Shown here: piece by piece, positions 4,028 through 48,286 of the stretch
Layout of the letters: each line of letters opens with the position of its first letter
Position numbering within the stretch: the stretch's first letter is position 1
Assembly (NCBI RefSeq): GCF_005144585.1
Contig: NZ_SSMQ01000088.1
Span: 1 to 48,711 of the forward strand
DNA length: 48,711 nucleotides
From: Polyangium fumosum
Lineage (GTDB): Bacteria > Myxococcota_A > Polyangia > Polyangiales > Polyangiaceae
Direction: 5' to 3'
Translations under genes and position numbers: made by a program
Notes under the pieces: generated by a model
Database searches by the model: none
What the model was told of the DNA's origin: nothing
What the model saw: only the letters and a program-made list of their open reading frames with translations

Positions 4028-4032
4028 CGCGC

Positions 4033-4058
4033 CCACGTTGACGCCCGGACAAACGTGG
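4033..4058. terminator. Hairpin between the HNH-like gene and its partner
   Basis: CCACGTT (4033-4039) pairs with AACGTGG (4052-4058) across a 12-base loop in the 45-bp gap between two co-oriented genes. No U-tract follows, so it may weaken read-through or act as an operator rather than be a full terminator. Confidence 0.3.
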
Positions 4059-4072
4059 TCTAGGCGAGGCAC

Positions 4073-4954: not shown

Positions 4955-5227
4955 CGGCGCAAGCATCCGCGGATCAAGAAGCCTCGACGCAAAGCGGAAG
5001 CGGCGGCGGAAACCGAAGCGGTTGCGGGAGCGGGTTTGGCAAGCGGCGGCGCGGGCGGCGCGGGCGGCAGCGGTGGCTCGCCTTCGACGCCGGGCCCCAC
5101 CCAAGAGGGCGGTTGCACGTGCTCGGCGGCAGGAGATTCCACCTCCACGGGAATGGAATCCGTCGCCCTTCCCATGGCCGGACTCCTCCTCGCCCTCGCG
5201 CGCGGCCGTCGCCGGATGCGACGCTGA
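4955..5227 (+). pseudogene. Detached Gly-rich linker and MYXO-CTERM-like tail
   Basis: In frame with the preceding gene but after its stop, this stretch encodes a basic segment, an Ala/Gly-rich linker (ASGGAGGAGGSGG), a Cys pair in GGCTCSAAG, a hydrophobic segment (LPMAGLLLALA) and an Arg-rich end (RGRRRMRR). This is the layout of MYXO-CTERM cell-surface sorting signals, which normally end long Sec-exported proteins. No start codon with a signal peptide lies in the same open stretch. It is best read as the 3' end of the surface-protein gene whose 5' end lies at 2455. Confidence 0.6.
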
Positions 5228-5318
5228 CCACGCGAACCCGCGAGACCACGGCCTCTCCATAGAAGGCGGCTCCCGCGTCCGCGGCGGTCTGCGCGTCTCC
5301 GAACGTCAAAACCCCCTC

Positions 5319-5586
5319 GCGTCACCGTGACGCGCGCCCATTCGAGCCTTCGAACACCCGCGCGTCACCGTCTCCTCCGGGTCTCCAAACGTTCGATCCC
5401 CCACGCGTCACCGTGACGCGCGCCCGTTCGAGCCTTCGAACACCCTCGCGTCACCGTCTCCCGCGGGTCTCCAAACGTTCGAGCACCCCCGCGTCACCGT
5501 GACGCGCGCCCGTTCGAGCCTTCGAACACCCTCGCGTCACGTTCTCCGACGCCCCTTCCAACGTTCGAACCCCCTCGCGTGCCCAC
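5319..5586. repeat. 43-bp phased repeat array upstream of the T6SS operon
   Basis: GCGTCAC-type boxes start at 5319, 5362, 5405, 5448, 5491 and 5534, with a last GCGT at 5577, always exactly 43 bp apart. Units alternate between two versions (86-bp higher-order period): one has the dyad GCGTCAC-C-GTGACGC and a TTCGAGCCTTCGAA segment, the other GCGTCACCGTCTC and AAACGTTCGA. A degenerate unit precedes 5319. The period is not a multiple of three, so this is not coding. The whole 5228-5778 gap holds no gene. Its right end (5587-5778) is the probable leader and promoter region of vgrG, where I see no confident promoter. Confidence 0.85.
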
Positions 5587-5778
5587 AACCTGCTCCCTGT
5601 CGGCCCCGCGAGGACACGACGACGAAGTCGACCCTCGGGTTGGTTTGAGCAGCAACATGTACACAAACCTGACAGCCGCCTCGCCGCGCGGGCTCGCTTT
5701 GTTGGGCGCAAACGCGCACGATCCTGCTTTACAGGCAAATCTGAGCCTTGGTAACCTCGCCGCCGAGGTGTCGCGCGC

Positions 5779-7863: not shown

Positions 7864-7876
7864 GAGGAGAAGGACC

Positions 7877-8248
7877 ATGCCTCCGGCAGCAAGAATCAGC
7901 GACCGACATGCCTGTCCCATCCCGGGGCACGCCATCAACGCCATCGTGACCGGCGAGGAGACGGTGATCGTCGGCTACATGCCGCAGTCGCGCGTGGGCG
8001 ACCTCGAGGCGTGCGGCGCGGCGATCGTGCAGGGCGAGCCGACGGTGATCATCGGCGATAAGGACGCGGCGCGGAAGGGCGATCCGACGACCCACGGGGG
8101 CAAGATCGTCTCGGGCTGCCCATCGGTGATCATCGGATCGAGCGCGCAGGCCGAGACGCTCCTCACGGACCGACCCTTCGTCGAGGAGTGCGAGGAGAAG
8201 GCGCGCGCGAAAGAGGAACGGCGGCAGCGCGAGAGGGAGACGCCATGA
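7877..8248 (+). CDS. PAAR-domain spike-tip protein
   Basis: A 123-residue PAAR protein that caps the VgrG needle as a sharp cone. The PAAR pattern is complete: SDRHACPIPGH, VGYMPQSRVGD, a Cys at about residue 46, IVQGEPTVIIGDKDAARKGD, HGGKIVSGCPSVIIG. The conserved His and Cys residues are the expected zinc ligands. After the PAAR fold there are about 30 charged, helical residues (EECEEKARAKEERRQRERE) but no toxin domain, so it caps the spike and may dock a separate cargo. A strong AGGAGG precedes the ATG. It lies 13 bp after the first vgrG and 30 bp before the second. Confidence 0.93.
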   Translation: MPPAARISDRHACPIPGHAINAIVTGEETVIVGYMPQSRVGDLEACGAAIVQGEPTVIIGDKDAARKGDPTTHGGKIVSGCPSVIIGSSAQAETLLTDRPFVEECEEKARAKEERRQRERETP

Positions 8249-8278
8249 AGACGCCTGGGCACATGAGGAGCGAAGGCC

Positions 8279-10522
8279 ATGGCCACCCTTGAGTTGTCGC
8301 TCGCCGCGGGCGAGCTCTCCGTGCGGCGTTTCGTCGTGAAAGAGGCGACCTCGTCGCTGTTCTCGGTCTCGATCTGGGGCCGGTCCCCGGATCCGGCCTT
8401 CGACCTCGGCGCCATCCTGGACAAACCGGCGACGTTCCGGTCCGCGCCGGGTTACCTGCACGTCTCGGGCCTCGGCGCGCGCACGTGGAAGGGGATCGTC
8501 GCCTTCGCGGAGCAGGTCCACGCGCTCCAGCCGCAGGCGGGGCAGCGGGGGCTCTCGACGTACCACGTCGAGATCGTCCCCGAGCTCTTCCGGCTGCGCT
8601 ACCGCCGGAACAACCGCATCTTCCAGCAGCTCTCCATCCCCGACATCGTCGACGTGTTGCTCGGCGAGTGGGGCATCGAGAAGGCCTGGAGGGTCGAGCG
8701 GGCGAAGTATCCGAAGCTCGAATACAAGGTCCAGTACGGGGAGAGCGATTACGCCTTCCTGAGCCGGCTCCTCGAAGAGGCGGGCATCGCGTTCACGTTC
8801 CCCGACGATCAGGGCGGCACGCTCACGTTCGCCGACCAGCTCCAGGCGAACCCCGCGCGTCCGGGCGACGGCCTTCGGTACGTCGATCATCCGGCGCAGG
8901 CCGCGGAGCAAGAGTACGTGACGGCCGTGCGCCTCTCGCACGACGTTCGCCCGGGCAGCTACACGATCCGGGATTACGAGTTCCGGAACCCCGATTTCGA
9001 GCTCTTTGGCCGCGCGCCCGCGGCGACCGGCTCCGAGCAATACCACTTCGATCAGGGTGCGTTCCTCGTCGAGACGGGCAAGGGCGGCGGGACGCCGGTG
9101 GCCGACGACAAGGGGATTGCGCGGCACGACGAGAAGTACGGCAGCGAGCTTTCGGAGAAGGCGCTCCACGGCGAACGCGTGGGGGTGCGGGCGATCTCGT
9201 TCGAGGCCAATACGTACGATCTCGCGCCGGGGGTCGTCTTTTCGATGACCCGGCACCCGCACGCGGAGCTCTCGTCCGATCGGAAGCTGCTCGTGCTGGA
9301 GACGACGTTCGAGGGGACGGCGGAGGGCGAGTGGAGCCTGCTCGGTCAGGCGGTCTTCGCCGAGGTGCCGTACCGCCCGCCGCGCCGGACGCAGAAGCCG
9401 ATCGTGCACGGGCTCCAGTGCGCGATCGTGGTGGGCCCCTCGGGGCAGGAGATCCATACGGACGAGTTTGGCCGGGTCCGCGTGCAATTCCCCTGGGATC
9501 GCGAGGGGAAAAAGGACGAGGACAGCTCCTGCTGGCTCCGGGTGAACCAGGGCTGGGGCGGCATGGGATACGGGATGATCGTCTTGCCGCGCATCGGGCA
9601 AGAGGTGCTCGTGGGGTTCGCCGAGGGGGATCCCGATCTGCCGTTCGTGATGGGGCGTGTCTACAACGCCGTGCAGCAGGTGCCGTACAGGCTGCCGGAG
9701 CACAAGACGCGCAGCACGTGGAAGAGCGACTCCTCGCAGGGCTCGAAGGGGTTCAACGAGATCATGTTCGAGGATCTCGCGAAGCAGGAGCTCGTCTGGC
9801 AACAAGCGGAGAAGAACCGCACGCGGCTCGTCAAGGAGAACGAATTCGCGACGGTGGGCCACGACCGGCAGAAGCTCGTGAAGCGGGACGAGCGGGAGCA
9901 CACGGACGGGTCGCGCAAGCGCTGGGTGGGCAAGGACGCGGACGCGATCACGAAGCAAAAGAAACGCGAGCGGATCGACGTCGACGTGAGCGACGAGGTG
10001 AAGGGCAACCGGAGCGAGCGGATCGACGGCAAACAATCGCTGACGACCGCGGATTTCCGGGAGGAGAAGGTCGGGGGAAGGTACGCGCTCAAGGCGGCCA
10101 ACGAGGTGCACGTCGTGGGGGGCGAGAACTACGTCGGGGAGGGAGGGCAATCCTTCACCCTGCGCGGGCCCGGGGGCTTTCTCAAATTCGACGGGAGCGG
10201 CGTGACGATCGAGGGCACGGTGGTGGCGATCAACAACGGCGGCGCCCCCGGCGAGGGCCGCGGCGCCAAGCCGGAGAAGCCCGAGGACCCGGAGCTCGAT
10301 CATTACACGGAGTGCTTCCGGGCGATCGACGAGCGGTCGGAGGAGCCGATCCCGGAAATGCCCTATCGTATCGAGCTCGAGGACGGGACCGTCTACACGG
10401 GTCGCACGGACGACGAGGGATATACGATCCGCGTCGGGACGCTGAAGGAGCAGCAGGTGAAGGTCACGTGGGGAGGCGATCTCCCCTCGGGCCCGGACGC
10501 TCCGCTGGACGAGGGGTGCTGA
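8279..10522 (+). CDS. vgrG: VgrG with C-terminal extension (second copy)
   Basis: A 747-residue VgrG closely related to the gene before it, evidently a tandem duplicate, with the same gp27-like, OB (EIHTDEFGRVRVQFPWDREG) and needle segments. It differs in an extra C-terminal domain of about 75 residues after the needle: HYTECFRAIDE, then PYRIELEDGTVYTGRTDDEGYT, then VTWGGDLP. This resembles the small beta-sandwich (transthyretin/carboxypeptidase-regulatory-like) extensions that act as docking sites for cargo. The next gene starts one base after its stop, so the extension probably binds the M15-like protein encoded next. GAGGAGCGAAGGCC precedes the ATG. Confidence 0.94.
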   Translation: MATLELSLAAGELSVRRFVVKEATSSLFSVSIWGRSPDPAFDLGAILDKPATFRSAPGYLHVSGLGARTWKGIVAFAEQVHALQPQAGQRGLSTYHVEIVPELFRLRYRRNNRIFQQLSIPDIVDVLLGEWGIEKAWRVERAKYPKLEYKVQYGESDYAFLSRLLEEAGIAFTFPDDQGGTLTFADQLQANPARPGDGLRYVDHPAQAAEQEYVTAVRLSHDVRPGSYTIRDYEFRNPDFELFGRAPAATGSEQYHFDQGAFLVETGKGGGTPVADDKGIARHDEKYGSELSEKALHGERVGVRAISFEANTYDLAPGVVFSMTRHPHAELSSDRKLLVLETTFEGTAEGEWSLLGQAVFAEVPYRPPRRTQKPIVHGLQCAIVVGPSGQEIHTDEFGRVRVQFPWDREGKKDEDSSCWLRVNQGWGGMGYGMIVLPRIGQEVLVGFAEGDPDLPFVMGRVYNAVQQVPYRLPEHKTRSTWKSDSSQGSKGFNEIMFEDLAKQELVWQQAEKNRTRLVKENEFATVGHDRQKLVKRDEREHTDGSRKRWVGKDADAITKQKKRERIDVDVSDEVKGNRSERIDGKQSLTTADFREEKVGGRYALKAANEVHVVGGENYVGEGGQSFTLRGPGGFLKFDGSGVTIEGTVVAINNGGAPGEGRGAKPEKPEDPELDHYTECFRAIDERSEEPIPEMPYRIELEDGTVYTGRTDDEGYTIRVGTLKEQQVKVTWGGDLPSGPDAPLDEGC

Positions 10523-10523
10523 C

Positions 10524-11669
10524 ATGGCGCAAGGAGACCCCAAGGTATCGACCACGCGGCAGAACAACCCGGCCGCGACCGAGGATCGGGTCGCCGCGAA
10601 GCGGACCGTGACCTACATCTTCAACACCTCGGCCACATCGAGCACGCTCAGCATTCCCTATGCGGTCGCCGTCGACGACGAGGTGCAGGCCGCATACCGG
10701 AATTCGGTCGCGCGTGTCAGCGGCGGGGACGGCGCGATCACCGTCACCGTCAACTCCGGCCAGAAGGTGAGCCTGTTCCTGAACAGCGACGCCGCTCCGG
10801 GGCGACGCAAGAACGCCGTATACGCGGTGACGCCCAAGGATCGGAACGTCCGGGTGACGGTCAAGGAGAAAAAGGGCAAACACAACGACCCCGACACGCC
10901 CGTGCTCGTGGCCACCGAGAAAGCCCTCGAGAAGTACAATGCCCCGCTCACGGGCGACATCTGGATGAAGGTGACGCACAAGTTCACCGCCGCGGATGTC
11001 GACGCCGCGGTGCCGGCCGGGACACGCGCGGAGATCATCGCGGCCCTGCGGATCCTGTACGGGGGCCTCACCGGCAACACGTTGACGTTGACGATCCCGG
11101 CGTCGGGCACCCAGGCCGCATTCACGACGACGCTCACGTTCGCGGACGCCGACAACCCGAGGGACAACATCACGAGCTTCAGCCTCACGACGGATGGCCT
11201 GCCGCGCGTGCACCCCGCGGGGTTCGCGGCGATCCTGAAGGCCGCCGTGGATTCGAGCGTGACGGCCATCTCGATGAGCTCGAACTGGCGCCCTTGTCTG
11301 GGCTCGATCGCGCATCGCGCCGGGCTCGGCGTGGACGTGAACAACGTGGGCGGCACGCGGATGTTCCGCACCGCGGGCGCCAACGCCACGGAGGTGCGGC
11401 TCCTGCAAGCCTTCCAGGCGAAGCCGACCGACGCGAACAAGGCGGCGTACGAGGCGGAGCGCGACAAGAACCAACCGCTCCACGTGCAGGGCTTCCGGAG
11501 GTCGCTCCAGCAGAACCCGGGGGTCAAGCAATGCTTCGATCCGTGGGAGATGGATAGCAACACGAGGGACAACCAGGCGGCGACGCCGAACCGGCAGAAC
11601 GACGGGAATTCGAAGCTCCACGGCAACCACCTGCACATCACCGCGCGTGATGGAGTCATCATCGCCTGA
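10524..11669 (+). CDS. Putative T6SS effector, M15-like peptidoglycan peptidase
   Basis: A 381-residue protein without a signal peptide. The first 130 residues look like an immunoglobulin-like or docking segment. The C-terminal half has the zinc-peptidase arrangement of VanY/M15 enzymes: SSNWRP (about 252-257), H264-R-A-G-x-x-x-D271, and HGNHLHI with H369 and H371. These residues would bind zinc and cut peptide bonds in peptidoglycan stems. Lack of an export signal and its position one base after a VgrG with a cargo-docking extension point to delivery by the spike. An inserted stretch between the motifs (about 285-355) is longer than in small M15 enzymes. The family assignment is from motifs only. 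Confidence 0.7.
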   Translation: MAQGDPKVSTTRQNNPAATEDRVAAKRTVTYIFNTSATSSTLSIPYAVAVDDEVQAAYRNSVARVSGGDGAITVTVNSGQKVSLFLNSDAAPGRRKNAVYAVTPKDRNVRVTVKEKKGKHNDPDTPVLVATEKALEKYNAPLTGDIWMKVTHKFTAADVDAAVPAGTRAEIIAALRILYGGLTGNTLTLTIPASGTQAAFTTTLTFADADNPRDNITSFSLTTDGLPRVHPAGFAAILKAAVDSSVTAISMSSNWRPCLGSIAHRAGLGVDVNNVGGTRMFRTAGANATEVRLLQAFQAKPTDANKAAYEAERDKNQPLHVQGFRRSLQQNPGVKQCFDPWEMDSNTRDNQAATPNRQNDGNSKLHGNHLHITARDGVIIA

Positions 11670-11706
11670 GGCGTAACGTCACGACACGAGGAGCCGAGGA
11701 GCCACG

Positions 11707-12474
11707 ATGATCATCCGCCAAGCCTCCCTGGACGCCTTCCAGAAGTCGGCGATGAAGTCCTTCGAGGACGAGATGATCGAGCATTGCAAGGTGTTCTCCC
11801 CGAACCTCTGCAAGACGCTCACCCCGGAGCAGTTGCGCCACGCGATCCAGGCCGCGATCGAGATGGCATCCCGGTACGGGTTCACCCGGCGCGGCCCGGT
11901 GCATTTCTACATCGACTGCATGCTCCTCTTCGGCAGCAGCTTCCCGACGGACCCGCAATACCCGTGGATGGCCGAGATCCTCGTGCGTGACGATTTCGCC
12001 GAGGAGATGCTCAAGGCCGACGCGTTGCACGAGAAGGTCTGTGAGTACCTCCGCGAGGTCGGCGGCTCGGACAGCCGCTACATGCGCGGCGCGCTCCGGA
12101 GGCTGCTTCGCCTCGCCCAGGCAAACGATCTGCCGCTCCATCAGGACGCGATCGAGCAAGACATCCTGCGCCTGCTCGGGCAGGTGTGGCCGGAGAAACT
12201 CGCGTACAGCGGCCCGGAGACGATGCAGCTCCTCGTCAGCGACGCCGTGGGGCGCGCCCGCGACACGTACGGCTTCACCCAGCCCCGCTCGATAGCGCTG
12301 ATGGCCGTGCTCATGGTCGCCTTTGGTCATCGGTGCGACGACGATCCGCTGTTCCCATGGATCAGCAAAACACTCGCGCGGCGTGAAGAGGACGGCCCCG
12401 CCATCGTCGCCGAAAAACTCGAACGTCGCACCCTCGTCTGGTTCGAAGCGGTCCTCGAGAACGAGCTCGCCTAA
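11707..12474 (+). CDS. T6SS-associated protein of unknown function
   Basis: A 255-residue, mostly helical protein without signal peptide. Segments such as SRYGFTRRGPVHFYIDCMLL, FGSSFPTDPQYPW and a second, similar YGFTQPRSIALMAVLMVAFG ... DDPLFPWI show that it consists of two homologous halves (about 1-135 and 136-255). I know no defined activity for it. Its place between two peptidoglycan-effector genes suggests an adaptor or chaperone that loads one of them onto VgrG, or an immunity protein. Against immunity, it lacks the export signal expected of a protein that must act in the periplasm. It has a short spacer on both sides and is surely part of the operon. Confidence 0.7.
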   Translation: MIIRQASLDAFQKSAMKSFEDEMIEHCKVFSPNLCKTLTPEQLRHAIQAAIEMASRYGFTRRGPVHFYIDCMLLFGSSFPTDPQYPWMAEILVRDDFAEEMLKADALHEKVCEYLREVGGSDSRYMRGALRRLLRLAQANDLPLHQDAIEQDILRLLGQVWPEKLAYSGPETMQLLVSDAVGRARDTYGFTQPRSIALMAVLMVAFGHRCDDDPLFPWISKTLARREEDGPAIVAEKLERRTLVWFEAVLENELA

Positions 12475-12484
12475 GGGAAAGTCG

Positions 12485-13276
12485 ATGACACAAGCAAGAC
12501 CCCCCGCCACGCCCGACTCGGTCTCGAACGCAAATTCGCCGGCCTCGCCGTCCAACGTCCCCGACGCGAACCAGCCGGCCGCGCAAACATGCAGCACGTG
12601 CAAGGACAGGCGGGTCATCGTCATCGATCCCGGTCACGGCGGGACCGCCATGGTAGGCGGGAGCAGCCCGAACAACGCGACGGCGGTCTCAGGCGTCCTG
12701 GAGAAGACCCTGACGCTCCAGTATGCGCAAACCCTCAAGCAGCACCTCGACGGCGAGGCGTGCAAATCGATCTTCCGAGGTCGAGGCTATGCCGACGTGC
12801 AGGTCGTCTTGACGCGCACGGGAGACACCAATCCGGGGCTGAGCACGCGGGTCAACGTCGCGAAGACGAACAAGGCCGACATCTTCCTCAGCATTCATTT
12901 CAACGGCGGAGTGGCGGCGGCGCGAGGCACGGAGACGTTCTACAAGGCCGGCTCCAACGGCAACGCAAACCTGGGCGAGGACACAGCCCTCGCGCAGACC
13001 GTCCAGACCGCGCTCTTCAATGCCATGAAGAGCATCGACGGGGGCGCGAAGGACCGAAAAATCAAGCCCGACACGGACACCAAGCACAAGAGCCTGGGCA
13101 TCCTGCGGGACCCCGGCATCGGTTACAGCGGCAAGATGTGCCGCTCGGTCCTGATCGAGGTGGAGTTCATCTCGAACCACCAGGTGGACGCGCTGCTCGT
13201 AAGCGGCGGGCGCGCCTCGGCAAACCGCAGCACGCTCATGCTCGCCGTCGCGCGCGCCCTCGCGAATTCGCTGTGA
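12485..13276 (+). CDS. N-acetylmuramoyl-L-alanine amidase (Amidase_3), T6SS cargo
   Basis: About 263 residues. After a 40-residue Pro/Ser/Asn-rich disordered start comes a complete Amidase_3 domain: VIDPGHGG (H51), zinc-binding E73, LSIHFN (H138) and catalytic E225 in LIEVEF. It cleaves the amide between muramic acid and the stem peptide. Cell-division amidases carry a signal peptide; this one does not, and it ends a vgrG operon, so T6SS delivery is likely. The open frame extends upstream into the previous gene, but ATG 12485, preceded by AGGGAAAGTCG, fits the end of that gene. With the M15-like protein the operon would carry two enzymes attacking different peptidoglycan bonds. Confidence 0.85.
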   Translation: MTQARPPATPDSVSNANSPASPSNVPDANQPAAQTCSTCKDRRVIVIDPGHGGTAMVGGSSPNNATAVSGVLEKTLTLQYAQTLKQHLDGEACKSIFRGRGYADVQVVLTRTGDTNPGLSTRVNVAKTNKADIFLSIHFNGGVAAARGTETFYKAGSNGNANLGEDTALAQTVQTALFNAMKSIDGGAKDRKIKPDTDTKHKSLGILRDPGIGYSGKMCRSVLIEVEFISNHQVDALLVSGGRASANRSTLMLAVARALANSL

Positions 13277-13292
13277 CGGGGAGCCGCCGCGC

Positions 13293-13597
13293 CCGGGGCT
13301 CTGCCCCGGACCCCGCGGGGGGCTGTCCGCCCCCTCGACCCCGGACCAGCGAGGCGCTGGACCCAGGGTTGAAAAACTGCGCTCCGCGCAGTTTTTCAAA
13401 CAGGCCGACGAAGAAGCCGGAGGGCCAGCCGAACCCGCAGCGCGGCTGTCTCGATCGGCAACGCCGCTTCTGGTCTTGACCGGGCCTGTTCGATGAACTG
13501 CGCATCGCGCAGTTCATCGAGCTTGGGTCCAGCCCCTGGCTGGTCCGGGGTGGAGGGGGCGGATAGCCCCCTCCTGGGGCCTGGGGCAACGCCCCAG
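13293..13597. repeat. Composite multi-hairpin repeat, copies 2 and 3 (B and inverted A)
   Basis: A B-type element (13293-13410, plus orientation) and an A-type element (13472-13597, minus orientation) are joined by a 61-bp linker that is conserved in the composites at 16 kb and 25 kb. The B stem is TTGAAAAACTGCGC (13369-13382) pairing with 13386-13399; the A stem is TCGATGAACTGCGC (13490-13503) pairing with 13507-13520; loops are three bases. It fills the whole gap between two convergent genes, so it may end transcription from both sides. Confidence 0.9.
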
Positions 13598-16038: not shown

Positions 16039-16341
16039 CCGGGGCGCTGCCCCGGACCCCGCGGGGGGCTGTCCGCCCCCTCGACCCCGGACCAGCGAGG
16101 CGCTGGACCCAGGGTTGAAAACCTGCGCTCCGCGCAGTTTTTCAAACAGGCCGACGAACAACCCGGGTCGCCAGCCGAACCCACAGCGCGGCTGTCTCGG
16201 CTGGCAACGCCGCTACTAGTCTTGACCGGGCCTGTTCGATGAACTGCGCACCGCGCAGTTCATCGATTTGGGGTCCAGCCCCTGGCTGGTCCGGGTCCAG
16301 GGGCGGACAGCCCCTGGTCGGGGTCCGGGGTGAAACCCCGG
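16039..16341. repeat. Composite multi-hairpin repeat, copies 4 and 5 (B and inverted A)
   Basis: The layout matches the 13.3-kb composite: B (16039-16157), conserved linker, inverted A (16219-16341). The B stem (16115-16128 with 16132-16145) has one C/T mismatch. The A half ends in a CCGGGG/CCCCGG hairpin where other A copies have CTGGGG/CCCCAG, a compensatory change. It fills the gap between the convergent aminotransferase and SDR genes. Confidence 0.9.
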
Positions 16342-25011: not shown

Positions 25012-25315
25012 CTGGGGCGTTGCCCCAGGCCCCAGCAGGGGCTGTCCGCCCCTGCACCCGGACCAGCCAGGGGCTGGACCCAAGCTCGATGAACTGCGCG
25101 ATGCGCAGTTCATCGAACAGGCCCGGTCAAGACCAGCAGCGGCGTTGCCAACCAAGACAGCCGCGCTGTTGGTTCTGCTGGCAACCCGGCTTCTTCGTCG
25201 GCCTGTTTGAAAAACTGCGCACCGCGCAGGTTTTCAACCCTGGGTCCAGCGCCTCGCTGGTCCGGGGTCGAGGGGGCGGACAGCCCCCCGCGGGGTCCGG
25301 GGCGGCGCCCCCGGC
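25012..25315. repeat. Composite multi-hairpin repeat, copies 6 and 7 (A and inverted B)
   Basis: The reverse complement of the composites at 13.3 and 16.0 kb: A in plus orientation (25012-25134), the linker, and B in minus orientation (25191-25315). The B stem is TTGAAAAACTGCGC against GCGCAGGTTTTCAA, with a mismatch at the same stem position as in the 16-kb copy but on the other arm. It separates two genes of the same direction, so this copy is not between convergent genes. Confidence 0.9.
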
Positions 25316-39904: not shown

Positions 39905-42436
39905 TCACGCCGGACCAAGCCATTGCGACGCGGTTTCGAGCAGGCGCCGATGATCCGGCACCTGTTCGAGGAAGCTGCGCCGGAAGCGCCGATCGCCAAT
40001 CTTGTCGGCCTTCTCCAAGAGGCGCCGCCGCGCCTCGCCGAGGCGGCGCCTGGCCTCAGGCTCCTGGCCGGTCGCGTGCATGGCGAGCGCCTGCACGAGG
40101 CGCGTCAAAGCGTCCCCTTCCTCGATGCCGCCGATCCGGTCGAGGTGGCTCGCCGCCTCGCTCGCGGGCGCCAGGGCGGCGAGCGCGTGGCCCTCGGCGA
40201 GGAGCGCGTCCGCCAGCACCGCGAGCGCATAAGCCCGCTTGGGCGGCAGATCCTCGGCCTCCTCCGCCGCCGTGCGCGCGAGCGTCACCGCGCCGCCGTG
40301 ATCGCCCTGCATCGCCCGGATCCGCGCCGCGTAGACGAGCAGCCCCGCCTCGCGGCGCCGATCGTTTCGCTGGCGCGACGTCTGAAGGGCCGCCTCGATG
40401 ATCGGCAGCCCCTCGGCGTCCCGTCCGAGGTGCGCGAGGCAATACCCGAGCGCGCCCTGGGCGAACGGCAAGAAATCGAGCTGCATGGGCTCGGCCACCG
40501 CGACGGCCCGCCGCAGGCCGAAGCAAGCGCGATCGTAGGCGCCGAGGTGCATGTACGCGAGCCCGACGTTCGTCCGCTGCACGCAGGCGTTGCGGATGTC
40601 ACTCGCCTCGGTGAAGCCATCCACGGCAGCCTCGACGCGGCGCAAGTACGCGGCCGGATCCCCCTCGAAGATGGCGATCTCGGCGCGGGCCGCAGCAAGC
40701 CAAGCCCGGAGGAAGGGGCCCACGACGCCCGCCCGCGCGACGCGGCTGTGGGCATCCCGCGCGAGCTTGCGGCCGAGCTGCGGGACGCCCGCGCGAATGA
40801 CGAAGATCGCGAGCCGGCACGCGCTCACGAGGTGCGCCTCGGTCGTGACGCCCTCCTCCTCCTCGAGCTGGACGAGCTCGTCCACGCGCGCGAGCAGCCG
40901 ATCCTTGCGGCCGAGGTAGCCGTACGCGATGACGAGGTGTCCAAACGCGGCATGCCAGCCGTTCGAGCCGCGCGGCATGCGAGCCATCGCCTCCTGGGCC
41001 GCCCGCGCGGCCTCGCCGTACTGGCCGAGCCAGCGCTGCGCGATGGTGAGCACGAGCCAGGCCTTGCCGCGGACGTCCTCGCTCTCGCCGGGGATTTCAA
41101 GCGCGATCTGCGCCCAGCGGATCGCATCGTCGAGGGCATTCACGTCGAGCGCCTCCTCGGCGAGCTTGACGGGGTCCTCCTCGTCCGTGTGGCCGTGGCT
41201 CTCGGAGCCGCCCCACTCGGTCCGCGAAGCCGGCAGCGGGGTCAAGACAGGCACGCGCGGCCGCTGCAAAAGCGCGCCGGGGCGCGGCGGCAGCGGAGGC
41301 GGAGGGCGGTTGACCCGGACGTACCCACCGCCGTCCTCGGGCAGAGGAGCGCCGAAGCCGTCCGGCAGGTCGTGCACCGGCGCGTCGAGCACCGGGTCCT
41401 CGATCGGGACGACGTCAGCGAGCCCCGGCCCCACGAACTGGCCCGGATTCGGCGCCGCATGCCCGACGAGCAAGCGCGTGCCGCCATGGGCCTCGCAGAG
41501 CGCGTCGCGGAAATCGAGGATCGTAGCGAAGCGCTCCTTGAGGTCACGCGCAAGCGCACGTGCGACGGCAGGCGCGAAGGGCCAAGCCGCCTTGGGCGCG
41601 ACGAAGTCGAGCGAGGGCGGCGGATCCGACGAGACGATCTTCGCGAGCAGCCTGGCGAGGCCATCCGCCCCGAAGGGCTGCACGCCCGAGAGCATCTCGA
41701 ACGTGACGACGCCCATCGCCCACACGTCGGCGCGCGTGTCGATCTTCTCGGCGAGGACCTGCTCAGGGGCCATGTACTGCGGCGTGCCGAGGAGCATGCC
41801 GAGGCGCGTGAGGCTCTGCTTGCCCGGCTCATGGAGCTTGGCGAGGCCAAAGTCGATGATCTTCGGGATGATCTCGCCCGAAGGCGAGCGCGCGAGGATG
41901 ACGTTCTCGGGCTTGAGATCCCGGTGGATGATGCCGGACGCGTGCGCAGCGGCGATGCCGCTCATCACAGGCACGAGGATCGCAAGCGCCTCGTCAGGCT
42001 CGAGTGGCCCGCGCGCGTCGAGGTGCTCACGCAAGGTCTGTCCGACGAGCAGCTCCTGCACGAGGTAAAACGCGCCGTCACGGCGGCGGCCAACCTCGAG
42101 CACGTTCACGATGTTCGGGTGCTGCACGCGCGCCGCAGCCTGCGCCTCGCGGCGGAAGCGGGCCACCATCGAGGGATCGGTGGTGTAGTGCGGGTGCATG
42201 AGCTTGAGCGCAACCTTGCGCTCGATGAGCGTGTCCCACGCCTCGAACACCGTGCCCATACCACCCGAGGCGATCACCCGCTGGAGCGCGAACTTGTCAG
42301 CGACAACGGTGCCCGGCGAGAGCGGGATGCTACTCGGAGGCGCGATGGATCGCGGCTCAGGATCGAGGTCAGGCAGCGCGTCGTCGTGGTGCATGCCCGG
42401 GGCGAAGGCTCCCTCGTCGTTCCGATCGTCGCCCAC
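39905..42436 (-). CDS. Soluble Ser/Thr protein kinase with TPR repeats
   Basis: About 843 residues. A disordered acidic N-terminus of about 40 residues is followed by the kinase domain (ASGGMGTVFEA, VALKLMHPH, HRDLKPENV, DFG, GTPQYMAPEQ; about 50-310), a Pro-rich linker, and a C-terminal half of tandem TPR-type helical repeats (about 430-835). No transmembrane helix is seen, unlike the other two kinases here, so it acts in the cytoplasm and the TPRs probably bind substrates or partners. I chose GTG 42436 because GAGAGGAG lies seven bases before it; GTG 42463, nine codons earlier, has no such site. It diverges from the RNA ligase gene across a repeat copy. Confidence 0.9.
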   Translation of the reverse strand: MGDDRNDEGAFAPGMHHDDALPDLDPEPRSIAPPSSIPLSPGTVVADKFALQRVIASGGMGTVFEAWDTLIERKVALKLMHPHYTTDPSMVARFRREAQAAARVQHPNIVNVLEVGRRRDGAFYLVQELLVGQTLREHLDARGPLEPDEALAILVPVMSGIAAAHASGIIHRDLKPENVILARSPSGEIIPKIIDFGLAKLHEPGKQSLTRLGMLLGTPQYMAPEQVLAEKIDTRADVWAMGVVTFEMLSGVQPFGADGLARLLAKIVSSDPPPSLDFVAPKAAWPFAPAVARALARDLKERFATILDFRDALCEAHGGTRLLVGHAAPNPGQFVGPGLADVVPIEDPVLDAPVHDLPDGFGAPLPEDGGGYVRVNRPPPPLPPRPGALLQRPRVPVLTPLPASRTEWGGSESHGHTDEEDPVKLAEEALDVNALDDAIRWAQIALEIPGESEDVRGKAWLVLTIAQRWLGQYGEAARAAQEAMARMPRGSNGWHAAFGHLVIAYGYLGRKDRLLARVDELVQLEEEEGVTTEAHLVSACRLAIFVIRAGVPQLGRKLARDAHSRVARAGVVGPFLRAWLAAARAEIAIFEGDPAAYLRRVEAAVDGFTEASDIRNACVQRTNVGLAYMHLGAYDRACFGLRRAVAVAEPMQLDFLPFAQGALGYCLAHLGRDAEGLPIIEAALQTSRQRNDRRREAGLLVYAARIRAMQGDHGGAVTLARTAAEEAEDLPPKRAYALAVLADALLAEGHALAALAPASEAASHLDRIGGIEEGDALTRLVQALAMHATGQEPEARRRLGEARRRLLEKADKIGDRRFRRSFLEQVPDHRRLLETASQWLGPA

Positions 42437-42480
42437 GGACGTGCTCCTCTCGGTTGTCCCCACAAAACGCGCGCGGCGCC

Positions 42481-42486: not shown

Positions 42487-42540
42487 CCCACGCACGCGCG
42501 GCAGGGGAAGCGGCGTCAAGCGCGTGGCGGCGACGACGCA

Positions 42541-42658
42541 CTGGGGCGTCGCCCCAGGCCCCAGGAGGGGGCTGTCCGCCCCCTCCACCCCGGACCAGCC
42601 AGGGGCTGGACCCGTGGTCGATGACCTGCGCGATGCGCAGCTCATCGAGCAGGCCGTG
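42541..42658 (+). repeat. Multi-hairpin repeat, copy 8 (sister of copy 9)
   Basis: An A-type element in canonical orientation: CTGGGGC/GCCCCAG, then GGAGGGGGC/GCCCCCTCC with loop TGTCC, then the long stem 42618-42631 with 42635-42648. The stem has a C/C mismatch shared only with the copy at 43353. It lies between the divergent kinase and RNA ligase genes, where a simple terminator would have no gene to end. Confidence 0.9.
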
Positions 42659-42725
42659 ACGGGCTTCGTGGAGGAAGGCTTTATACTGGCCCGCGACCAG
42701 GGACAAGGACCGTGGAGACTTCTTC

Positions 42726-43349
42726 ATGACCGAGATTGTCAAGCCGACGTTCGAGCCGTTCCCCAAGATCCCGCGCCTCAACCGGCTGTGCGTCGCCACG
42801 GAGAAGATCGACGGGACGAATGCGTGCATCTACGTCGGCGAGCCCGTCTCCCCAAACGCCGGTGCGCCAAACCCAACGCTCCTCCTCGCAGGGTCCAGGT
42901 CCAAGTGGATCACGCCGCAGGACGACAACTACGGCTTCGCGCGCTGGGTCGAGGAACATCGCGAAGAGCTCATCACCGGCCTCGGGCCAGGCCTGCATTA
43001 CGGCGAGTGGTGGGGAGCAGGCATCCAGCGGCGCTACGGCTTGCAGGAGAAGCGCTTCAGCCTCTTCGACACCCAACGCTGGGGAGACAACGCGGAGCGT
43101 CCGGCATGCTGCAACGTCGTCCCGGTGCTGGCGCAAGGGATGGACATCCGCGCCGTCACCGAGAAGGCGCTGGCCCTCCTCCGCAAGGAGGGTTCACGCG
43201 CCGCACCCGGCTTCATGCAGCCCGAGGGCGTGGTCATCATCCACTCAGCCTCGGGCGGCTCGTTCAAGGTCACCCTGGAGAAGGACGAGGCCCCGAAGGG
43301 ACAGGGCAAGGAGGAGCCACGAGCCCTCCAACGACGGCCTTCGAGGTGA
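42726..43349 (+). CDS. Small RNA ligase (Rnl2-like nucleotidyltransferase)
   Basis: A 207-residue member of the RNA/DNA ligase nucleotidyltransferase superfamily. Motif I is EKIDGTN (K27 would take AMP), motif Ia region GSRSKW, motif III LHYGEWWG (E93), motif IIIa FSLFDTQRW, motif IV PEGVVI (E167) and motif V FKVTLEK. All catalytic residues are present, but there is no C-terminal specificity domain, so it is shorter than T4 Rnl2 (334 residues). It would seal or repair 3'-OH/5'-phosphate RNA ends. GGAG lies eight bases before the ATG. The gene sits alone between two sister multi-hairpin repeat copies in the same orientation, which makes it look like cargo of that repeat family. Confidence 0.85.
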   Translation: MTEIVKPTFEPFPKIPRLNRLCVATEKIDGTNACIYVGEPVSPNAGAPNPTLLLAGSRSKWITPQDDNYGFARWVEEHREELITGLGPGLHYGEWWGAGIQRRYGLQEKRFSLFDTQRWGDNAERPACCNVVPVLAQGMDIRAVTEKALALLRKEGSRAAPGFMQPEGVVIIHSASGGSFKVTLEKDEAPKGQGKEEPRALQRRPSR

Positions 43350-43352
43350 GCG

Positions 43353-43470
43353 CTGGGGCGTTGCCCCAGGCCCCAGAAGGGGGCTCTCCGCCCCCTTCAC
43401 CCCGGACCAGCCAGGGGCTGGACCCGCAGTCGATGACCTGCGCGATGCGCAGCTCATCGAACAGGCCAGG
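43353..43470 (+). repeat. Multi-hairpin repeat, copy 9 (sister of copy 8)
   Basis: An A-type element starting four bases after the RNA ligase stop. It has CTGGGGC/GCCCCAG, GAAGGGGGC/GCCCCCTTC (compensatory to copy 8) with loop TCTCC, and the same long stem with the same C/C mismatch as copy 8. It lies between the ligase gene and the convergent candidate-immunity gene. Confidence 0.9.
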
Positions 43471-43517: not shown

Positions 43518-44618
43518 CTACGGCCGAATCCCGAGCAGCGAGAGCGCATCCGACCAGAGAGGCCAGAGCGTGCGGTCGGGGTGGGCCATCAACACGAGCG
43601 CGCCATTGTCGAGGCGCCTGACGTACGCCGGCGTGTGCTCCTCGATGAAACGGATGTGCTCCTCGGTCACGGGGATCATGTCCCGCTCGTCGGCGGAGGA
43701 GCGTCCGATTTCGTCGATCAGGCGAGAGAGCTCCCATTGCATGGCTTCCCATGTGGGATGTAGCTTTTCCTGGGCTGCCTCGAGGGCCTCGAGCAAGACC
43801 TTGGGAGGCAGGTCGAGCGCTGCGAGCACTTGTTCGCGCGCCAATCGCTCTTCATCGATGATCCAAACGCTGCTCCCGCGCGGCGACGCTTCGACGCGCG
43901 CCCGGAGCACGTCGATCGGAGAGCTCACCGCGAGATCGATCCGCTCCTTGTCGTGGAGGTGCATCCACGTCAGCGCGAGATCACGGCCGGGATATCCATC
44001 CGCGTGGTAGGTCCCTGCCATGGTCATGGGAGCGCCCCAGTCCGGCCCTTCGCCGCAGCCGCCCGTCGTGATGGCGGGGCTCGCCGTGCAAAACCGAACG
44101 AGGAGGTCGTAGCTGTCGATCAGCGCGATTTTCCAAGCGACCCCGGCCTCCATGGCCAGGGACGAAGGACCTCCGCGTTTCAGCCGCGGCAGCTCCGCCG
44201 GCAGGAGGAAGCCCTCCTCGAACCCCTTGTACCAGAAACCGATGTCGAGCGTGCTACCTCCGCATCCGCCCAGGAAGTATTTGTCAGCCTTCCAATCCAT
44301 GTGCACGTTGACACAAAACCGAAGCTCGCGGCCGGAGGGCGCCGCGAGGTCGTCGATGTCTGCTCTCTGCCACCCGTATCTCCCCTCGTAGTTGTGGCGA
44401 ACCACGGCCGTTGCTTTCGCTGGGGTCAGGGAATACTCCGAGTCGTCGTCACCCGCCTTGTCGAAGTCGTACACCGTGCAATGTCCCGATGCGCCCACCA
44501 GGGCCGCCAAGGCCGAGGTGAAAGCCTCGAAGCGCCCGGCCTCTGGGCACCACGCGAAGAACGTTGGCCAAGGCCTCGGGCCCTCGCTGTCTGTCTTGCG
44601 GTTCCATTTTCTTCTCAT
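43518..44618 (-). CDS. Candidate immunity protein for the upstream toxin
   Basis: A 366-residue protein without signal peptide. I recognise no firm family; the N-terminal layout (TFFAWCPEAGRFEAF ... ADIDDLAAPSGRELRFCVNVH) is of the kind seen in some polymorphic-toxin immunity proteins. The last third is helical and acidic (LRARVEASPRG, WELSRLIDEIGRSS). Its ATG (44616-44618) overlaps the toxin stop in ATGA, giving tight translational coupling, the usual position and ratio for an immunity gene. A cytoplasmic location fits protection against a nuclease. The role is inferred from context. Confidence 0.6.
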   Translation of the reverse strand: MRRKWNRKTDSEGPRPWPTFFAWCPEAGRFEAFTSALAALVGASGHCTVYDFDKAGDDDSEYSLTPAKATAVVRHNYEGRYGWQRADIDDLAAPSGRELRFCVNVHMDWKADKYFLGGCGGSTLDIGFWYKGFEEGFLLPAELPRLKRGGPSSLAMEAGVAWKIALIDSYDLLVRFCTASPAITTGGCGEGPDWGAPMTMAGTYHADGYPGRDLALTWMHLHDKERIDLAVSSPIDVLRARVEASPRGSSVWIIDEERLAREQVLAALDLPPKVLLEALEAAQEKLHPTWEAMQWELSRLIDEIGRSSADERDMIPVTEEHIRFIEEHTPAYVRRLDNGALVLMAHPDRTLWPLWSDALSLLGIRP

Positions 44619-46807
44619 ATCTCCACCAGGTGGACGACGAGGTTGATGTTCTTCGCTCCGGTCACCTTCACGAGGTCTCCGTCAGCATTCTTCATCGTCC
44701 CATCTCCAACCCTCTTGAACCCCGCCTTGAGCTTTGCCCCCTTCGGCACGACAATCTGCACCCGCTCCACGAAGCCGGCAACGTTTCTCTCGCCCAGCTT
44801 GGCCATGACGTTGTCGAACTGACTGAGCGCCTTCGGCACGTTGACGACGCTCATCGGGCCGACAAACTTCGCGTCGCTGAGGATGAGCCCGTTCGTCGGC
44901 GTGACCGAGAGGAAATCGCAAGCCCTGGAGACGAGCCGCGTCTGGGAGCTCTCGGCGATGCCCAGCAATCTGCGCACTTCGCCGTCCCCGAGCGCGAGCA
45001 TCTTGTGTCCCTCCTTCTTGATCAAGTAGAGCGCCACGTCTCGCTCGAACACGTGCTCGAGTTTCTTGCTGAGCTCGTAGCCCCCGCGTTTGATCCCTCT
45101 CCACTCGCTGATCCGACTCTTGCTGAGCGCCGCGACGAGCTCCGGCCCGAACTCCACGACGCCCTGCGCCGTCGCCTTCGCGGCCGCGCCGATGGGCGCA
45201 TTCTTCATTCCCTTGTGGAACGCGACGCCCGCCCCCACGCCCGTCCCGACCGCCGAGAAGATCCGCTCGCCGAGCGACAGATCCCTCCCGACGGGCAAAC
45301 AAAACTCCTTCCCCGTCACCGCCTCGCACAAATCGAGCGCCGCCCCCACGTACGGCACGAACCCGATCCCGATCCGCGTCGCCGCGTGCGTCATCGTCAC
45401 CATCACGTCGACGTAGGGCATCGTGACGTCGCCGAGCTCCGACACCCCCGCGGAAAACGCCCGGATCATCTGGAAGAGGTGCGTCTTCTCCAGATCGACG
45501 GTGCCCCCATCGCCGAACCCCATCGCATTGAGCGCGTCCTTCAACTCGTCCGCGTATGCGCCGTACAGGTTCTTCAAGACCCCGTCCACCTGCGCGCGCA
45601 CGTCCGGCGGCACCTGCGAATTCAAAAACCAATCCGCGGCGTCCATGTATTGCTTCAGGTGGCTCGTCACCTTGTTCTGCGCATTCAAGAACGCGCTCAT
45701 CTCGGCCTGCGTCACGCCCGAGCCCGACAAAAGCGCCTTTTCAATCGCCGCCTGGTTCGCCCGCCACGCGCGCACCGTCGCGACGAACGAGCCGCGATCG
45801 ATGACCTCGCCACCCGAGACGTCCTCCTCGAGCGCCGCGATCACCGCATCCGCATACGCTGCATAAGGATCCTTCCCCGGCTCGAACGCGCCCGGCACAC
45901 CCGAAAGATCCGGGATGTCGACCGAGGGCGTCCCGCTCGGGCCGAGCCCGTAGTTGAACGGATCCTCCGGATGGAACCCGCCCGCGCGCGCGTCCGCCGT
46001 CAGGAAGTCCGCCACCGCGTCCGCCTGCGCGCCGAACTCCGCGGCCAGGCTCGCGAGCTCGTTTTGCAGGTCGACGACGCTTTGCTGGAGATCGTCGAAA
46101 AGCTCTACCAGCGCCGCCCGCGTCGCCTCGTCGACGACGCCCGTGTATCGATCGAGGATCGCGTCGAGATCCACCTGCGCGATTTCATCGAGCGGCCTCT
46201 GCACCAGATCGTGAAGCTCCAGCTCGAGCTCCCGCAGGAAGCTCAGCCGCTCGTCGAGCTCCGCGATCGCCGACGCGTTCGCCAGGAGCGCCTCTCGCTC
46301 GTGCGCGATGGCCACTTCCAGGTTCGTGATGGCCTGCGCGAGCGGAGGGTTGATCTCTGCAAGCGCGAGGCCGACCTGCGTGCTGCCGCTGAAGGCTATC
46401 CCATCGCGGCGGACGTCGAACAGCGGCTTCTGGATTCCGAGCGTCGGCGCGACGAGCGTCACGAAATTCTGCGAATGGACGCAGGTATTGTTGCCGGTGG
46501 AGGCCGTGACCCCGAACGAGAACTCGTTCGTGCCCATGCGCAGCAGCACGGAATCGAAGGGGGCTTCCGCCACATTCCCCCGCGAACCGTCGGGGCTCAC
46601 GAAGTAGGCCGCGGGGACCTCGAATGTGGCCAGCGGCATCCCATTCCCGTGAAAATAGGCGCCTCCTTTCATGCCGAGCCTGGCGTCCTCGCAGGAGTTG
46701 CTCTCCTGGAGCATCTCCCAATGCACGGTATACGGCGTCCCTGCGAGCGCCGTCATCGGAAGGACGCATGCAAGAAGCAGGAGCGCCAAGCAAAGAAACC
46801 TCTTCAT
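44615..46807 (-). CDS. Secreted polymorphic toxin, pre-toxin and PD-(D/E)xK-like C-terminus
   Basis: About 730 residues with a Sec signal (MKRFLCLALLLLACVLPMTALA). A beta-rich N-terminal domain (25-140) is followed by long coiled-coil helices (about 150-270). A pre-toxin-like hydrophobic stretch FVPYVGAALDLCEAVTGKEF lies at 483-502, with GRDLSLGERIFSAVGTG after it. The variable C-terminus (about 580-730) shows D631, then LILSDAK (D645, K647), then LSQFDN (Q663), the D...(D/E)xK plus Q arrangement of restriction-endonuclease-fold toxins. It would thus be an exported DNase. The frame is open upstream to 46915 but the signal peptide fixes ATG 46807. It overlaps both neighbours by four bases. The nuclease fold is inferred from motifs only. 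Confidence 0.65.
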   Translation of the reverse strand: MKRFLCLALLLLACVLPMTALAGTPYTVHWEMLQESNSCEDARLGMKGGAYFHGNGMPLATFEVPAAYFVSPDGSRGNVAEAPFDSVLLRMGTNEFSFGVTASTGNNTCVHSQNFVTLVAPTLGIQKPLFDVRRDGIAFSGSTQVGLALAEINPPLAQAITNLEVAIAHEREALLANASAIAELDERLSFLRELELELHDLVQRPLDEIAQVDLDAILDRYTGVVDEATRAALVELFDDLQQSVVDLQNELASLAAEFGAQADAVADFLTADARAGGFHPEDPFNYGLGPSGTPSVDIPDLSGVPGAFEPGKDPYAAYADAVIAALEEDVSGGEVIDRGSFVATVRAWRANQAAIEKALLSGSGVTQAEMSAFLNAQNKVTSHLKQYMDAADWFLNSQVPPDVRAQVDGVLKNLYGAYADELKDALNAMGFGDGGTVDLEKTHLFQMIRAFSAGVSELGDVTMPYVDVMVTMTHAATRIGIGFVPYVGAALDLCEAVTGKEFCLPVGRDLSLGERIFSAVGTGVGAGVAFHKGMKNAPIGAAAKATAQGVVEFGPELVAALSKSRISEWRGIKRGGYELSKKLEHVFERDVALYLIKKEGHKMLALGDGEVRRLLGIAESSQTRLVSRACDFLSVTPTNGLILSDAKFVGPMSVVNVPKALSQFDNVMAKLGERNVAGFVERVQIVVPKGAKLKAGFKRVGDGTMKNADGDLVKVTGAKNINLVVHLVEI

Positions 46808-48099
46808 AACCCCTCCGTGCTCTCGAGCGTCTCGAGCTCCGCCGCCATCGCCGCGAACCGCTGCCGCAGCGGCTTGCACGCCGCCTCTCGGAACGAGGAC
46901 GATCCCTCCGCGCAAAGCGGCTTCAACTGGAGCAGCCTCTTCAACGTTCGACGTCGCTTCGCCGCGTCAGGCGACGCGAGCGCGCTCCCCGTCGCGCCGG
47001 CCTCGTCGAGCTGCGCGAGAAGCGCGCCGGTGTCGGCCTGAAATGCGGCGGAGGCCTTCACGCTGCGCGACGCCATCGCGTCCTCACCCGCGACCGGGCC
47101 AGCGCCGAGCAAGGCGAGCGCGTGCCGTCGCAAAACGAGCCCCGTCACGAGCGACGTCGCCGTCTTGTCGCTGCGCTTGACCCGCTGCTCCACGTATCCG
47201 AGCATCGCGTGGATCGACCGCTGCGCGCCCGACGTCATGTCCGGCATGGCCGCGCCATGCGCGGCCATGAATTCCGTGTGCGGCGCGATCGCCTCCTCCG
47301 AGGTAAGATCGAATTGCAGGATCTCCGCGGACAGCTCGAACGCATGAAGCACGAGGTCGTTCGGCTTCGCGCTCGCAGCCTTCGCGGCGCTCAGGATCGC
47401 CTGCTCGACGCCGTCGATCGTATCGAGCGTCGTCGTTGACGCCTCGTCCGCGAGCTTCTCGTACGCCTCTGTCTCGGCCGCCTCGGTCGCGCGATAGCTC
47501 GAATATTCCGCGACGAGGTTTTTGTATGCGGCGCCGAGCAGCGAAGCGTCCTCCTTCGCGCCGTCGATGATGGACCGCGCCGCGCCCATGGCTTGCTTGT
47601 CGCTCGCGATCGCGGCAACGAGCGGGTCTTTCTCGGCGTTCGCTTTCTCCACGAGCGCCGCCTTGAAGTTCCCGATCGCGTCGACGGGCTCCTCCGACAG
47701 GATTTGCCGCTGCTTACGCTTTGCTTGCCGGAGGAGCTCTCCCATCCGGCCGTCCATGCTCGCTCGGTAGGACTCCGCGCTCTGCGCGTTGACGCGCAAG
47801 GAGAAGAGCACCTCGTCGATATCCGCGAACCACGCGTCGAGCTTGCCCCTGCTGCGGACGAGCTCGTCGAGCGTCACGTCCTCCGGCCATTCGGCCCACA
47901 TCTGGATAGGCAATGTTCCATGGACCTTCGCTTCCGCCCACGCGCTGCTCGGACTGCGTTCCGTGCTCACGCAATACTCGCCCCCTTCGCTCGGCGACGC
48001 GCAGAATCGCCCCAGGGAGGGATCGTCGCCCGGGAAACACGAGGACAAAGCCCCCGCCGCGGCGAGGAGCACCGCGCGGAAGAAAGGTTTCGACTTCAT
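46804..48099 (-). CDS. Helical lipoprotein of the toxin operon
   Basis: About 431 residues. The lipoprotein signal ends ALSSC (Cys21). A Cys pair near the start (FCASPSEGGEYC) is followed by an almost fully helical body with coiled-coil potential (about 90-260), interrupted by WAEWPEDVTLDEL, and a last Cys pair (PLCAEG ... EAACKPLR). It is the first gene of the three-gene operon and overlaps the toxin gene by ATGA, so it is made in step with the toxin. A role as surface carrier, anchor or export partner of the toxin is plausible; no family is recognised. The upstream region holds the 21-bp array. Confidence 0.65.
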   Translation of the reverse strand: MKSKPFFRAVLLAAAGALSSCFPGDDPSLGRFCASPSEGGEYCVSTERSPSSAWAEAKVHGTLPIQMWAEWPEDVTLDELVRSRGKLDAWFADIDEVLFSLRVNAQSAESYRASMDGRMGELLRQAKRKQRQILSEEPVDAIGNFKAALVEKANAEKDPLVAAIASDKQAMGAARSIIDGAKEDASLLGAAYKNLVAEYSSYRATEAAETEAYEKLADEASTTTLDTIDGVEQAILSAAKAASAKPNDLVLHAFELSAEILQFDLTSEEAIAPHTEFMAAHGAAMPDMTSGAQRSIHAMLGYVEQRVKRSDKTATSLVTGLVLRRHALALLGAGPVAGEDAMASRSVKASAAFQADTGALLAQLDEAGATGSALASPDAAKRRRTLKRLLQLKPLCAEGSSSFREAACKPLRQRFAAMAAELETLESTEGL

Positions 48100-48200: not shown

Positions 48201-48275
48201 CTGGGGCCTTGCCCCAAGCCCCACCCGGGGCTGTCCGCCCCGGGACCCGGACCAGCCAGGGGCTTTCCCCAAGCT
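48201..48275 (+). repeat. Multi-hairpin repeat, truncated copy 10
   Basis: It contains the first part only: CTGGGGC/GCCCCAA, then CCCGGGGC/GCCCCGGG (a further compensatory stem version) and ACCAGCCAGGGGCT. The long TCGATGAACTGCGC stem is missing, and the sequence changes into the 21-bp array region soon after. Confidence 0.8.
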
Positions 48276-48286
48276 CAGACGCACAA

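Follow-up and report, generated by a model that had tools for sequence, protein, structure and literature searches.

The window that we analyzed, a stretch of 48,711 nucleotides, is one whole contig (C187) of the 12.98-Mb draft genome (G000) of Polyangium fumosum. It carries a gene for a minimal, phage-type Rnl2-like RNA ligase of 207 amino acids (positions 42726-43349, forward strand), which was recognized from the list of open reading frames, Pfam, phrog, a protein alignment, a tree, a predicted model and fold matches. On its left, a repeat arm (42541-42656, forward strand) is located between the 5' ends of the ligase and of a conserved protein kinase (39905-42463, reverse strand). On its right, another repeat arm (43350-43468, forward strand) starts directly after the TGA stop codon of the ligase (43347-43349). 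Both arms are unpaired and belong to the type that we call A. Two further genes are found on the reverse strand beyond the right arm: a 366-aa gene (43518-44618), tentatively immunity-like, and a toxin-like 766-aa gene (44615-46915).

The initial annotation described a 207-residue Rnl2-like ligase with intact motifs, and the Pfam match, the invariant residues and the fold matches all bear this out. The protein matched the Pfam family RNA_ligase (2.2e-14; residues 22-172) and the RNA ligase family phrog_548 (1.9e-25); no match was obtained with the NCBIfam models. We aligned the window ligase with 32 relatives (31 from the 47 viral loci and one from a bacterial locus). Across the 33 sequences, K27, G30-T31-N32, G93-E94, S112-L113, E167-G168 and K181 are invariant, and we take these residues to represent the nucleotidyltransferase motifs, from the lysine of motif I through motif V. 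The predicted model (mean pLDDT of 89.4) had as its top fold matches T. brucei REL1, T4 Rnl2 and Naegleria Rnl, with TM-scores near 0.5. A profile search with the ligase found T4 Rnl2 in the PDB; searching the PDB with the single ligase sequence alone yielded no match. The window ligase thus has the nucleotidyltransferase core and the conserved motif residues in common with these Rnl2-like enzymes, but its identity to REL1 and T4 Rnl2 in structural alignments is just 16-17% and, with only 207 residues, it lacks the extra C-terminal domain that T4 Rnl2 carries. As judged from its family, the enzyme likely performs the ATP-dependent sealing of broken RNA. The dN/dS ratio between G000 and its sister species G004 is 0.34 for the ligase, 0.06 for the kinase and 0.36 for the 366-aa gene, and the ligase is, by this sequence measure, under purifying selection and kept intact. 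Scans for sigma-70 promoters and intrinsic terminators around the ligase found nothing.

Relatives of the ligase were found in 84 phage records, with an identity of about 60% at most (44-60% among the 20 of the 84 records listed), and are encoded on 47 viral contigs. The small phage RNA ligases of phrog_548, such as those of Rhizobium phage RHph_Y1_10 and Caulobacter phage CcrBL9, are similar in length to the window ligase in those that we viewed, and the conserved residues of the viral relatives in our alignment are identical to its own. Unlike these phage genes, the window ligase is a chromosomal gene without recognized phage neighbors. A tree of 40 rows grouped both genus copies and the copy of another member of the family (G282) with two viral sequences (support of 96/84, with a bootstrap that is not fully settled). 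Around the G282 ligase, some neighboring genes look phage-like when their translations are judged by eye. Within the genus, the ligase is present in two of six congeners, G000 and G004. At the level of the class, at least 10 of 317 genomes presented some match to the ligase, four of them weak (34-38% over part), when considering at most the best nine candidates per genome. We infer that the source of the ligase was a phage, since it nests among phage homologues. A literature search found no paper on an RNA ligase in Polyangium.

The ligase is located in a variable slot whose left border is the kinase, a gene with orthologues in all five congeners. Based on alignments of the congeners, the homology that G000 and G004 share with all four other species ends at 42511-42512 of the window (5536788-5536789 in G004), and the segment common only to G000 and G004 continues from there to the end of the contig (42512-48711), which holds part of it. 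In G004, homology to the sister species resumes at 5529953-5529954, which delimits a private segment of 6834 bp (5529955-5536788) with edges that are identical against all four sisters. The genes flanking the slot are collinear on both sides in the sister species and the slot contains other DNA there: about 630 bp in G002 and G005, 830 bp in G003 and about 5000 bp in G001. A small gene that looks rhodanese-like by eye is included in the slot of G002, G003 and G005. The private segment encodes the ligase, the 366-aa gene and the 766-768-aa gene. The ligase had been annotated as sitting alone between two repeats of the same orientation; it is indeed the only gene between two such arms, but it is one of three genes of a lineage-specific segment.

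For the 366-aa gene, neither Pfam nor NCBIfam gave a match above the cut-off, and full or partial relatives of its protein were found in five of the six genomes searched, with none in G003. The 766-aa gene presents a match to Pre-toxin TG (E = 0.0029; 18 bits, for a Pfam cut-off of 23.5). Immunity genes often diverge fast, as the 366-aa gene does relative to the kinase: the amino-acid identity between G000 and G004 is 86% for the former and 98% for the latter. Because the Pre-toxin TG match is weak and below the cut-off of Pfam, a toxin and immunity pair constitutes a lead and not a result. Elsewhere in the window, positions 2677-13279 present little collinear match in the G004 region that was compared, and a tandem array with a period of 43 bp is found at 5291-5611.

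The arms around the ligase belong to a genus-specific, dispersed family of extragenic palindromic repeats with many copies per genome. The usual unit is about 300-330 bp long and is composed of an A arm that faces a B or C arm; an arm is a row of hairpins and measures 116-126 nt as cut. Half units made of single arms also occur. The 1.63 Mb that we sampled from three species contained 85 elements: 53 with at least two arms, 17 single arms of full length and 15 fragments. Some of the single arms are found at contig ends, where the partner may be missing. Repeat matches were obtained in all six congeners (considering the best 40 candidates per genome). When a paired element was searched for in 60 genomes of the family, three gave good matches (all congeners), five gave weak matches of 28-62 bp and 52 gave none, among at most the best 12 candidates per genome. 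In contiguous sequence, the paired elements are inverted and associate A with B or C in 42 of 44 cases. A second, overlapping set, which was obtained mostly through A-arm queries, yielded the same association in 41 of 47 pairs; the six others contain at least one untyped arm, and no pair joined two arms of the same named type.

The distribution of these elements relative to genes was analyzed in one region of G004 and G003, with gene calls made by a simple GC-bias script. The nearest gene end was a 3' end for 28 of the 33 elements, and 28 of the 33 had a gene end no more than 60 bp away (median distance of 21 bp). Gaps between convergent genes hosted 17 of the 33 elements, relative to 21 of 82 and 20 of 78 among all gaps of at least 300 bp. 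For nine elements or fragments, the other species presents a short empty site. No consistent target-site duplication was observed over nine junctions; the global alignments were too gappy to define exact ends. The density of repeats varies along the chromosome, since they are frequent in positions 5340000-5940000 of G004 and were not found in 1000000-1079999 or 10000000-10039999.

In addition to the ligase-flanking arms, the window contains three paired elements, two of them arranged B+/A- (13295-13596 and 16041-16339) and one arranged A+/B- (25013-25311). It also contains a type-A arm at the left contig end (32-142, reverse strand), an arm fragment (48202-48276, forward strand) and a type-A arm at the right contig end (48598-48705, forward strand); the orthologous place in G004 is the A/B pair that closes the private segment. 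Both contig ends (1-153 and 48588-48711) are within repeat arms, and the assembly probably broke there. At the place of the 25013-25311 element, a single collinear alignment shows a pair in G004 (5554089-5554414) that reads as A with C; the window copy, A with B, is 93% similar to another element, as if it had been replaced in place. Inverted arms are usually separated by a short spacer, but they are widely spaced at two places: 542 bp on contig C44 of G000 (72046-72807) and 742 bp in G004 (6418168-6419134), the middle of the latter containing internal repeats. We read by eye the open reading frames within these wide-spaced arms (C44, 72.0-72.8 kb; G004, 6418.1-6419.2 kb) and between neighboring elements on contig C22 (137.4-138.4 kb), and no convincing cargo gene was found. 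Another variety of single arm, with a different last hairpin (ATCGACCGC..GCGGTCGAT), is found at 5438500 and 5638005 in G004 and at 509660 in G003.

The two arms that flank the ligase have the same orientation and both show GACCTGCGC..GCGCAGCTC, with a C.C mismatch in the last stem. This mismatch had been proposed to occur in no other copy. It is indeed absent from every other copy within the window, but the genome contains five others: the exact pattern was found in seven copies in G000 (the two ligase flanks, three on contig C22 and two on contig C125), in two copies in G004 (the ligase flanks only) and in none of the other four congeners. Over 110 distinct arms, the same stem pair is A.T in 90, C.C in nine, A.C in four, C.T in four, G.C, a regular pair, in two and T.T in one. 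Across the six genomes, the combination of the C.C stem and a GAT loop was matched exactly only at the four ligase-flanking arms of the two species. It is not clear-cut that the two window arms are each other's closest relatives, as had been suggested: the right arm and a copy on C44 both share 93.1% identity with the left arm, and the right arm of G004 matches it best (96.6%).

The orthologous ligase locus of G004 has the same layout. Its left arm has a different second stem, however, which shows that the copies at one place can change wholesale. In the 1.63-Mb sample, a gene between two unpaired, full-length arms of the same direction was found only at the ligase, in both species, and the bracket therefore counts as one event. 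For comparison, a second region contains a fragment located 254 bp from a full arm of the same direction. Spacings of 0.2-2 kb between elements are not rare, with 10 neighboring pairs (including the two ligase loci) among the 85 elements of this sample. The ligase bracket is not an everyday placement, because it is unique in the sample and because its layout is kept in both species. The right arm is ordinary, as repeats usually adjoin the 3' ends of genes. The site of the left arm is atypical: it lies between two 5' ends, 29 bp inside the segment edge, and marks the edge of the slot.

We further analyzed how the stems of the arms vary. RNA that is maintained for its fold is expected to pass through G.U pairs. 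Nine variable stem pairs, each with at least two Watson-Crick types, gave 987 cells over the 110 distinct arms, and 962 of these were Watson-Crick, one was G.T, six were A.C and 18 were other combinations, although fewer of these changes are independent because the arms have common ancestry. These cells exclude the outer part of the second stem, which could not be aligned column by column and was parsed arm by arm instead: 78 of 111 arms present one to four additional Watson-Crick pairs there, and 33 present none. At the base of this stem, the first failing pair is G.T in 45 of the 111 arms (22 of 26 B, 16 of 19 C, seven of nine untyped and none of 57 A). In none of the 45 arms was this G.T followed by two more pairs, and it may either function as a wobble pair or mark where the stem ends. 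Because the stem changes are nearly all Watson-Crick, the repeats appear more likely to be kept up at the DNA level, but the frequent G.T at the base of the second stem weakens this wobble argument. No Rfam family was found in the window at gathering score. With no Rfam match and stem changes that mostly lack G.U, the repeat was rejected as a structured RNA, the G.T at the second-stem base notwithstanding.

These results bear on the initial suggestion that the repeats may serve as substrate or guide of the ligase. In this reading, the enzyme would act on their transcripts by joining, circularization or guided repair. Proximity is the only observation in favor of such a role, together with the conservation of the layout in two species. 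Many repeats are present in four congeners that lack this ligase, and the homologous ligase genes that we examined are not flanked by repeats, the outcome that the initial annotation had named as refuting such a link. At 11 other bacterial loci with a ligase homologue (10 distinct, since L177 and L181 are apparently the same place), no hit to the repeat model was better than E = 2.2, and the two flanks of each locus presented no match to each other except one of 14 bp; the flanks were limited for L176 (no left flank), L177/L181 (143 bp on one side) and L182 (397 bp on one side). No hit to the repeat model at E <= 0.01 was found at the 47 viral ligase loci, and flank-to-flank comparison of 46 of these yielded only matches of 17 and 20 bp, in two loci. 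The other RNA_ligase-family genes of the genus gave the same result (14 loci, representing 12 of 23 distinct places; no model hit at E <= 0.01). Considering also the scarcity of G.U outside the second-stem base and the lack of an Rfam family in the window, an action of the ligase on repeat RNA is very improbable. Rather than forming an RNA-processing system, ligase and repeats most likely adjoin incidentally, because the repeats are numerous in each genome and settle just after genes of all kinds.

The repeats had also been proposed as the boundary of a mobile cassette. In the form that we considered, a left A end and a right B end would move any DNA that they enclose, here the ligase, immunity-like and toxin-like genes. 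The G004 segment opens with an A arm and closes with a B arm that is part of a pair; by our reading of the sequences, these two arms face inward, like those of a normal unit. The repeats are located about 29 bp (left arm) and 17 bp (G004 pair) inside the segment edges. We then quantified how often a repeat is found within 60 bp of the edge of a species-specific segment, using one 400-kb comparison (region 1). Among segments of at least 900 bp, nine of 32 presented a repeat at an edge, relative to 1.4 expected when repeats were placed in random intergenic positions (maximum of seven in 200 runs) and to a mean of 4.5 when placements were matched to gene ends (two of 200 runs reached nine). For segments of at least 1500 bp, the count was nine of 23, against 3.3 for the matched null (none of 200 runs reached nine). 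The matched null of region 1 is the one to trust, as early tests with random placement overstated the effect. Region 2 was compared with the weaker, random intergenic null: repeats were found at the edges of four of 15 segments of at least 900 bp (0.9 expected; two of 200 runs reached four) and three of 14 segments of at least 1500 bp (0.7 expected; 10 of 200 runs reached three). The enrichment at edges is thus likely real but modest, about twice the gene-end-matched chance, and it does not show that the repeats move segments.

This twofold excess is what keeps a weak form of the cassette interpretation standing, and much of the signal reflects the preference of repeats for gene ends, which the edges of variable slots often are. 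Three segments had repeats at both edges, a number that 17 of 200 matched runs reached for segments of at least 900 bp and three of 200 for those of at least 1500 bp, and the larger-segment count of region 2 was reached by 10 of 200 runs even of the weaker null. Moreover, G001 fills the slot with about 5 kb in which no repeat was found, and neither of the two transposase families that we tried was linked to the repeats. We consider it unlikely that the repeats are the borders of a mobile cassette. Alternatively, the two arms could derive from local duplication or gene conversion, with the ligase trapped between them, a scenario that we view as possible if rather doubtful. The restriction of the C.C stem with GAT loop to the four flanking arms is consistent with it, and a tree groups three of these four arms (support of 0.86 and 0.74). 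The left arm of G004, with its different second stem, falls outside this group, and A arms within 5 kb of one another are not more alike than distant ones (mean of 0.846 for 12 pairs and 0.837 for 293 pairs; permutation P = 0.31). A general local similarity of neighboring arms was rejected on the basis of this permutation.

Our results are probably best explained by two independent things that share a spot: a captured phage-type ligase and a dispersed family of extragenic palindromic repeats. The order of events would be as follows. The common ancestor of the two species presumably captured the ligase in the variable slot beside the conserved kinase, together with the toxin-like and immunity-like genes. 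The repeats, for their part, settle some tens of bases past stop codons and are gained and lost from species to species, probably through a process acting on hairpin DNA. The right arm adjoins the stop codon of the ligase in the way that most elements adjoin the end of one gene or another; the left arm is found at the edge of the slot. No link at the RNA level between ligase and repeats is needed. It is quite improbable, by comparison, that the A and B/C ends represent an unrecognized mobile system of the genus acting on hairpin DNA, with the units of about 300-330 bp as its minimal form and the ligase segment as a large cargo unit with outer A and B ends. If this were true, the repeats would act as transferable borders with which genes are captured downstream of stop codons.

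The explanation by two independent things removes a tempting RNA-processing story as unsupported. What stands instead is a clearly delimited family of repeats, carried by large bacterial genomes. Its two-ended units almost always join different ends and are placed just behind stop codons, its stems covary strongly, and the two transposase families tried gave no linked enzyme. If the enrichment at segment edges is causal, these repeats would help explain the turnover of genes in these genomes. We found no paper on intergenic genome repeats in Polyangium, nor on myxobacterial MITEs or inverted-repeat transposable elements; in the available text of a Sorangium cellulosum paper, the word "palindromic" stands for CRISPR (PMC3696898).

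Finally, we compared the repeats to known systems. Two candidate drivers were rejected. A RAYT-driven REP mechanism would need a transposase that half of the carriers did not present: the Y1 (RAYT-type) family PF01797 matched three of the six repeat-carrying genomes and none of G002, G003 and G004, and no repeat was found at the four PF01797 loci. An IS91-like (Y2) driver was likewise set aside, as PF04986 was found in four of the six genomes without a match in G000 and G001. The GTAG tag was found in one of 112 arms and CGTC in four of 112, inside the first hairpin. The complement of CGTC was found behind the last hairpin (after position 100) in 28 of 112 arms, 25 of them B and one A. Integron gene cassettes have one long imperfect palindrome per attC site and go with an integron integrase; the Polyangium arms are rows of separate hairpins. 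REP, BIME and REPIN sequences are, in the parts of the two papers available to us, high-copy extragenic palindromes that occur as inverted doublets and singlets (PMC3116915, PMC3733652), and heterodimers are described there for some REP families (PMC3733652). The Polyangium repeats resemble these elements as portrayed in the same parts: they present many extragenic copies, often as inverted pairs with additional singlets, they prefer the 3' ends of genes and convergent gaps, and they vary in presence and absence between relatives (PMC3116915, PMC3733652). A REP unit measures 20-40 bp and bears a terminal GTAG or CGTC tag, however, and the Polyangium arms are about 115 nt long with several hairpins. 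Because the tested unit size, tag and RAYT fail, we do not file these repeats as members of REP/BIME, but they work like them.
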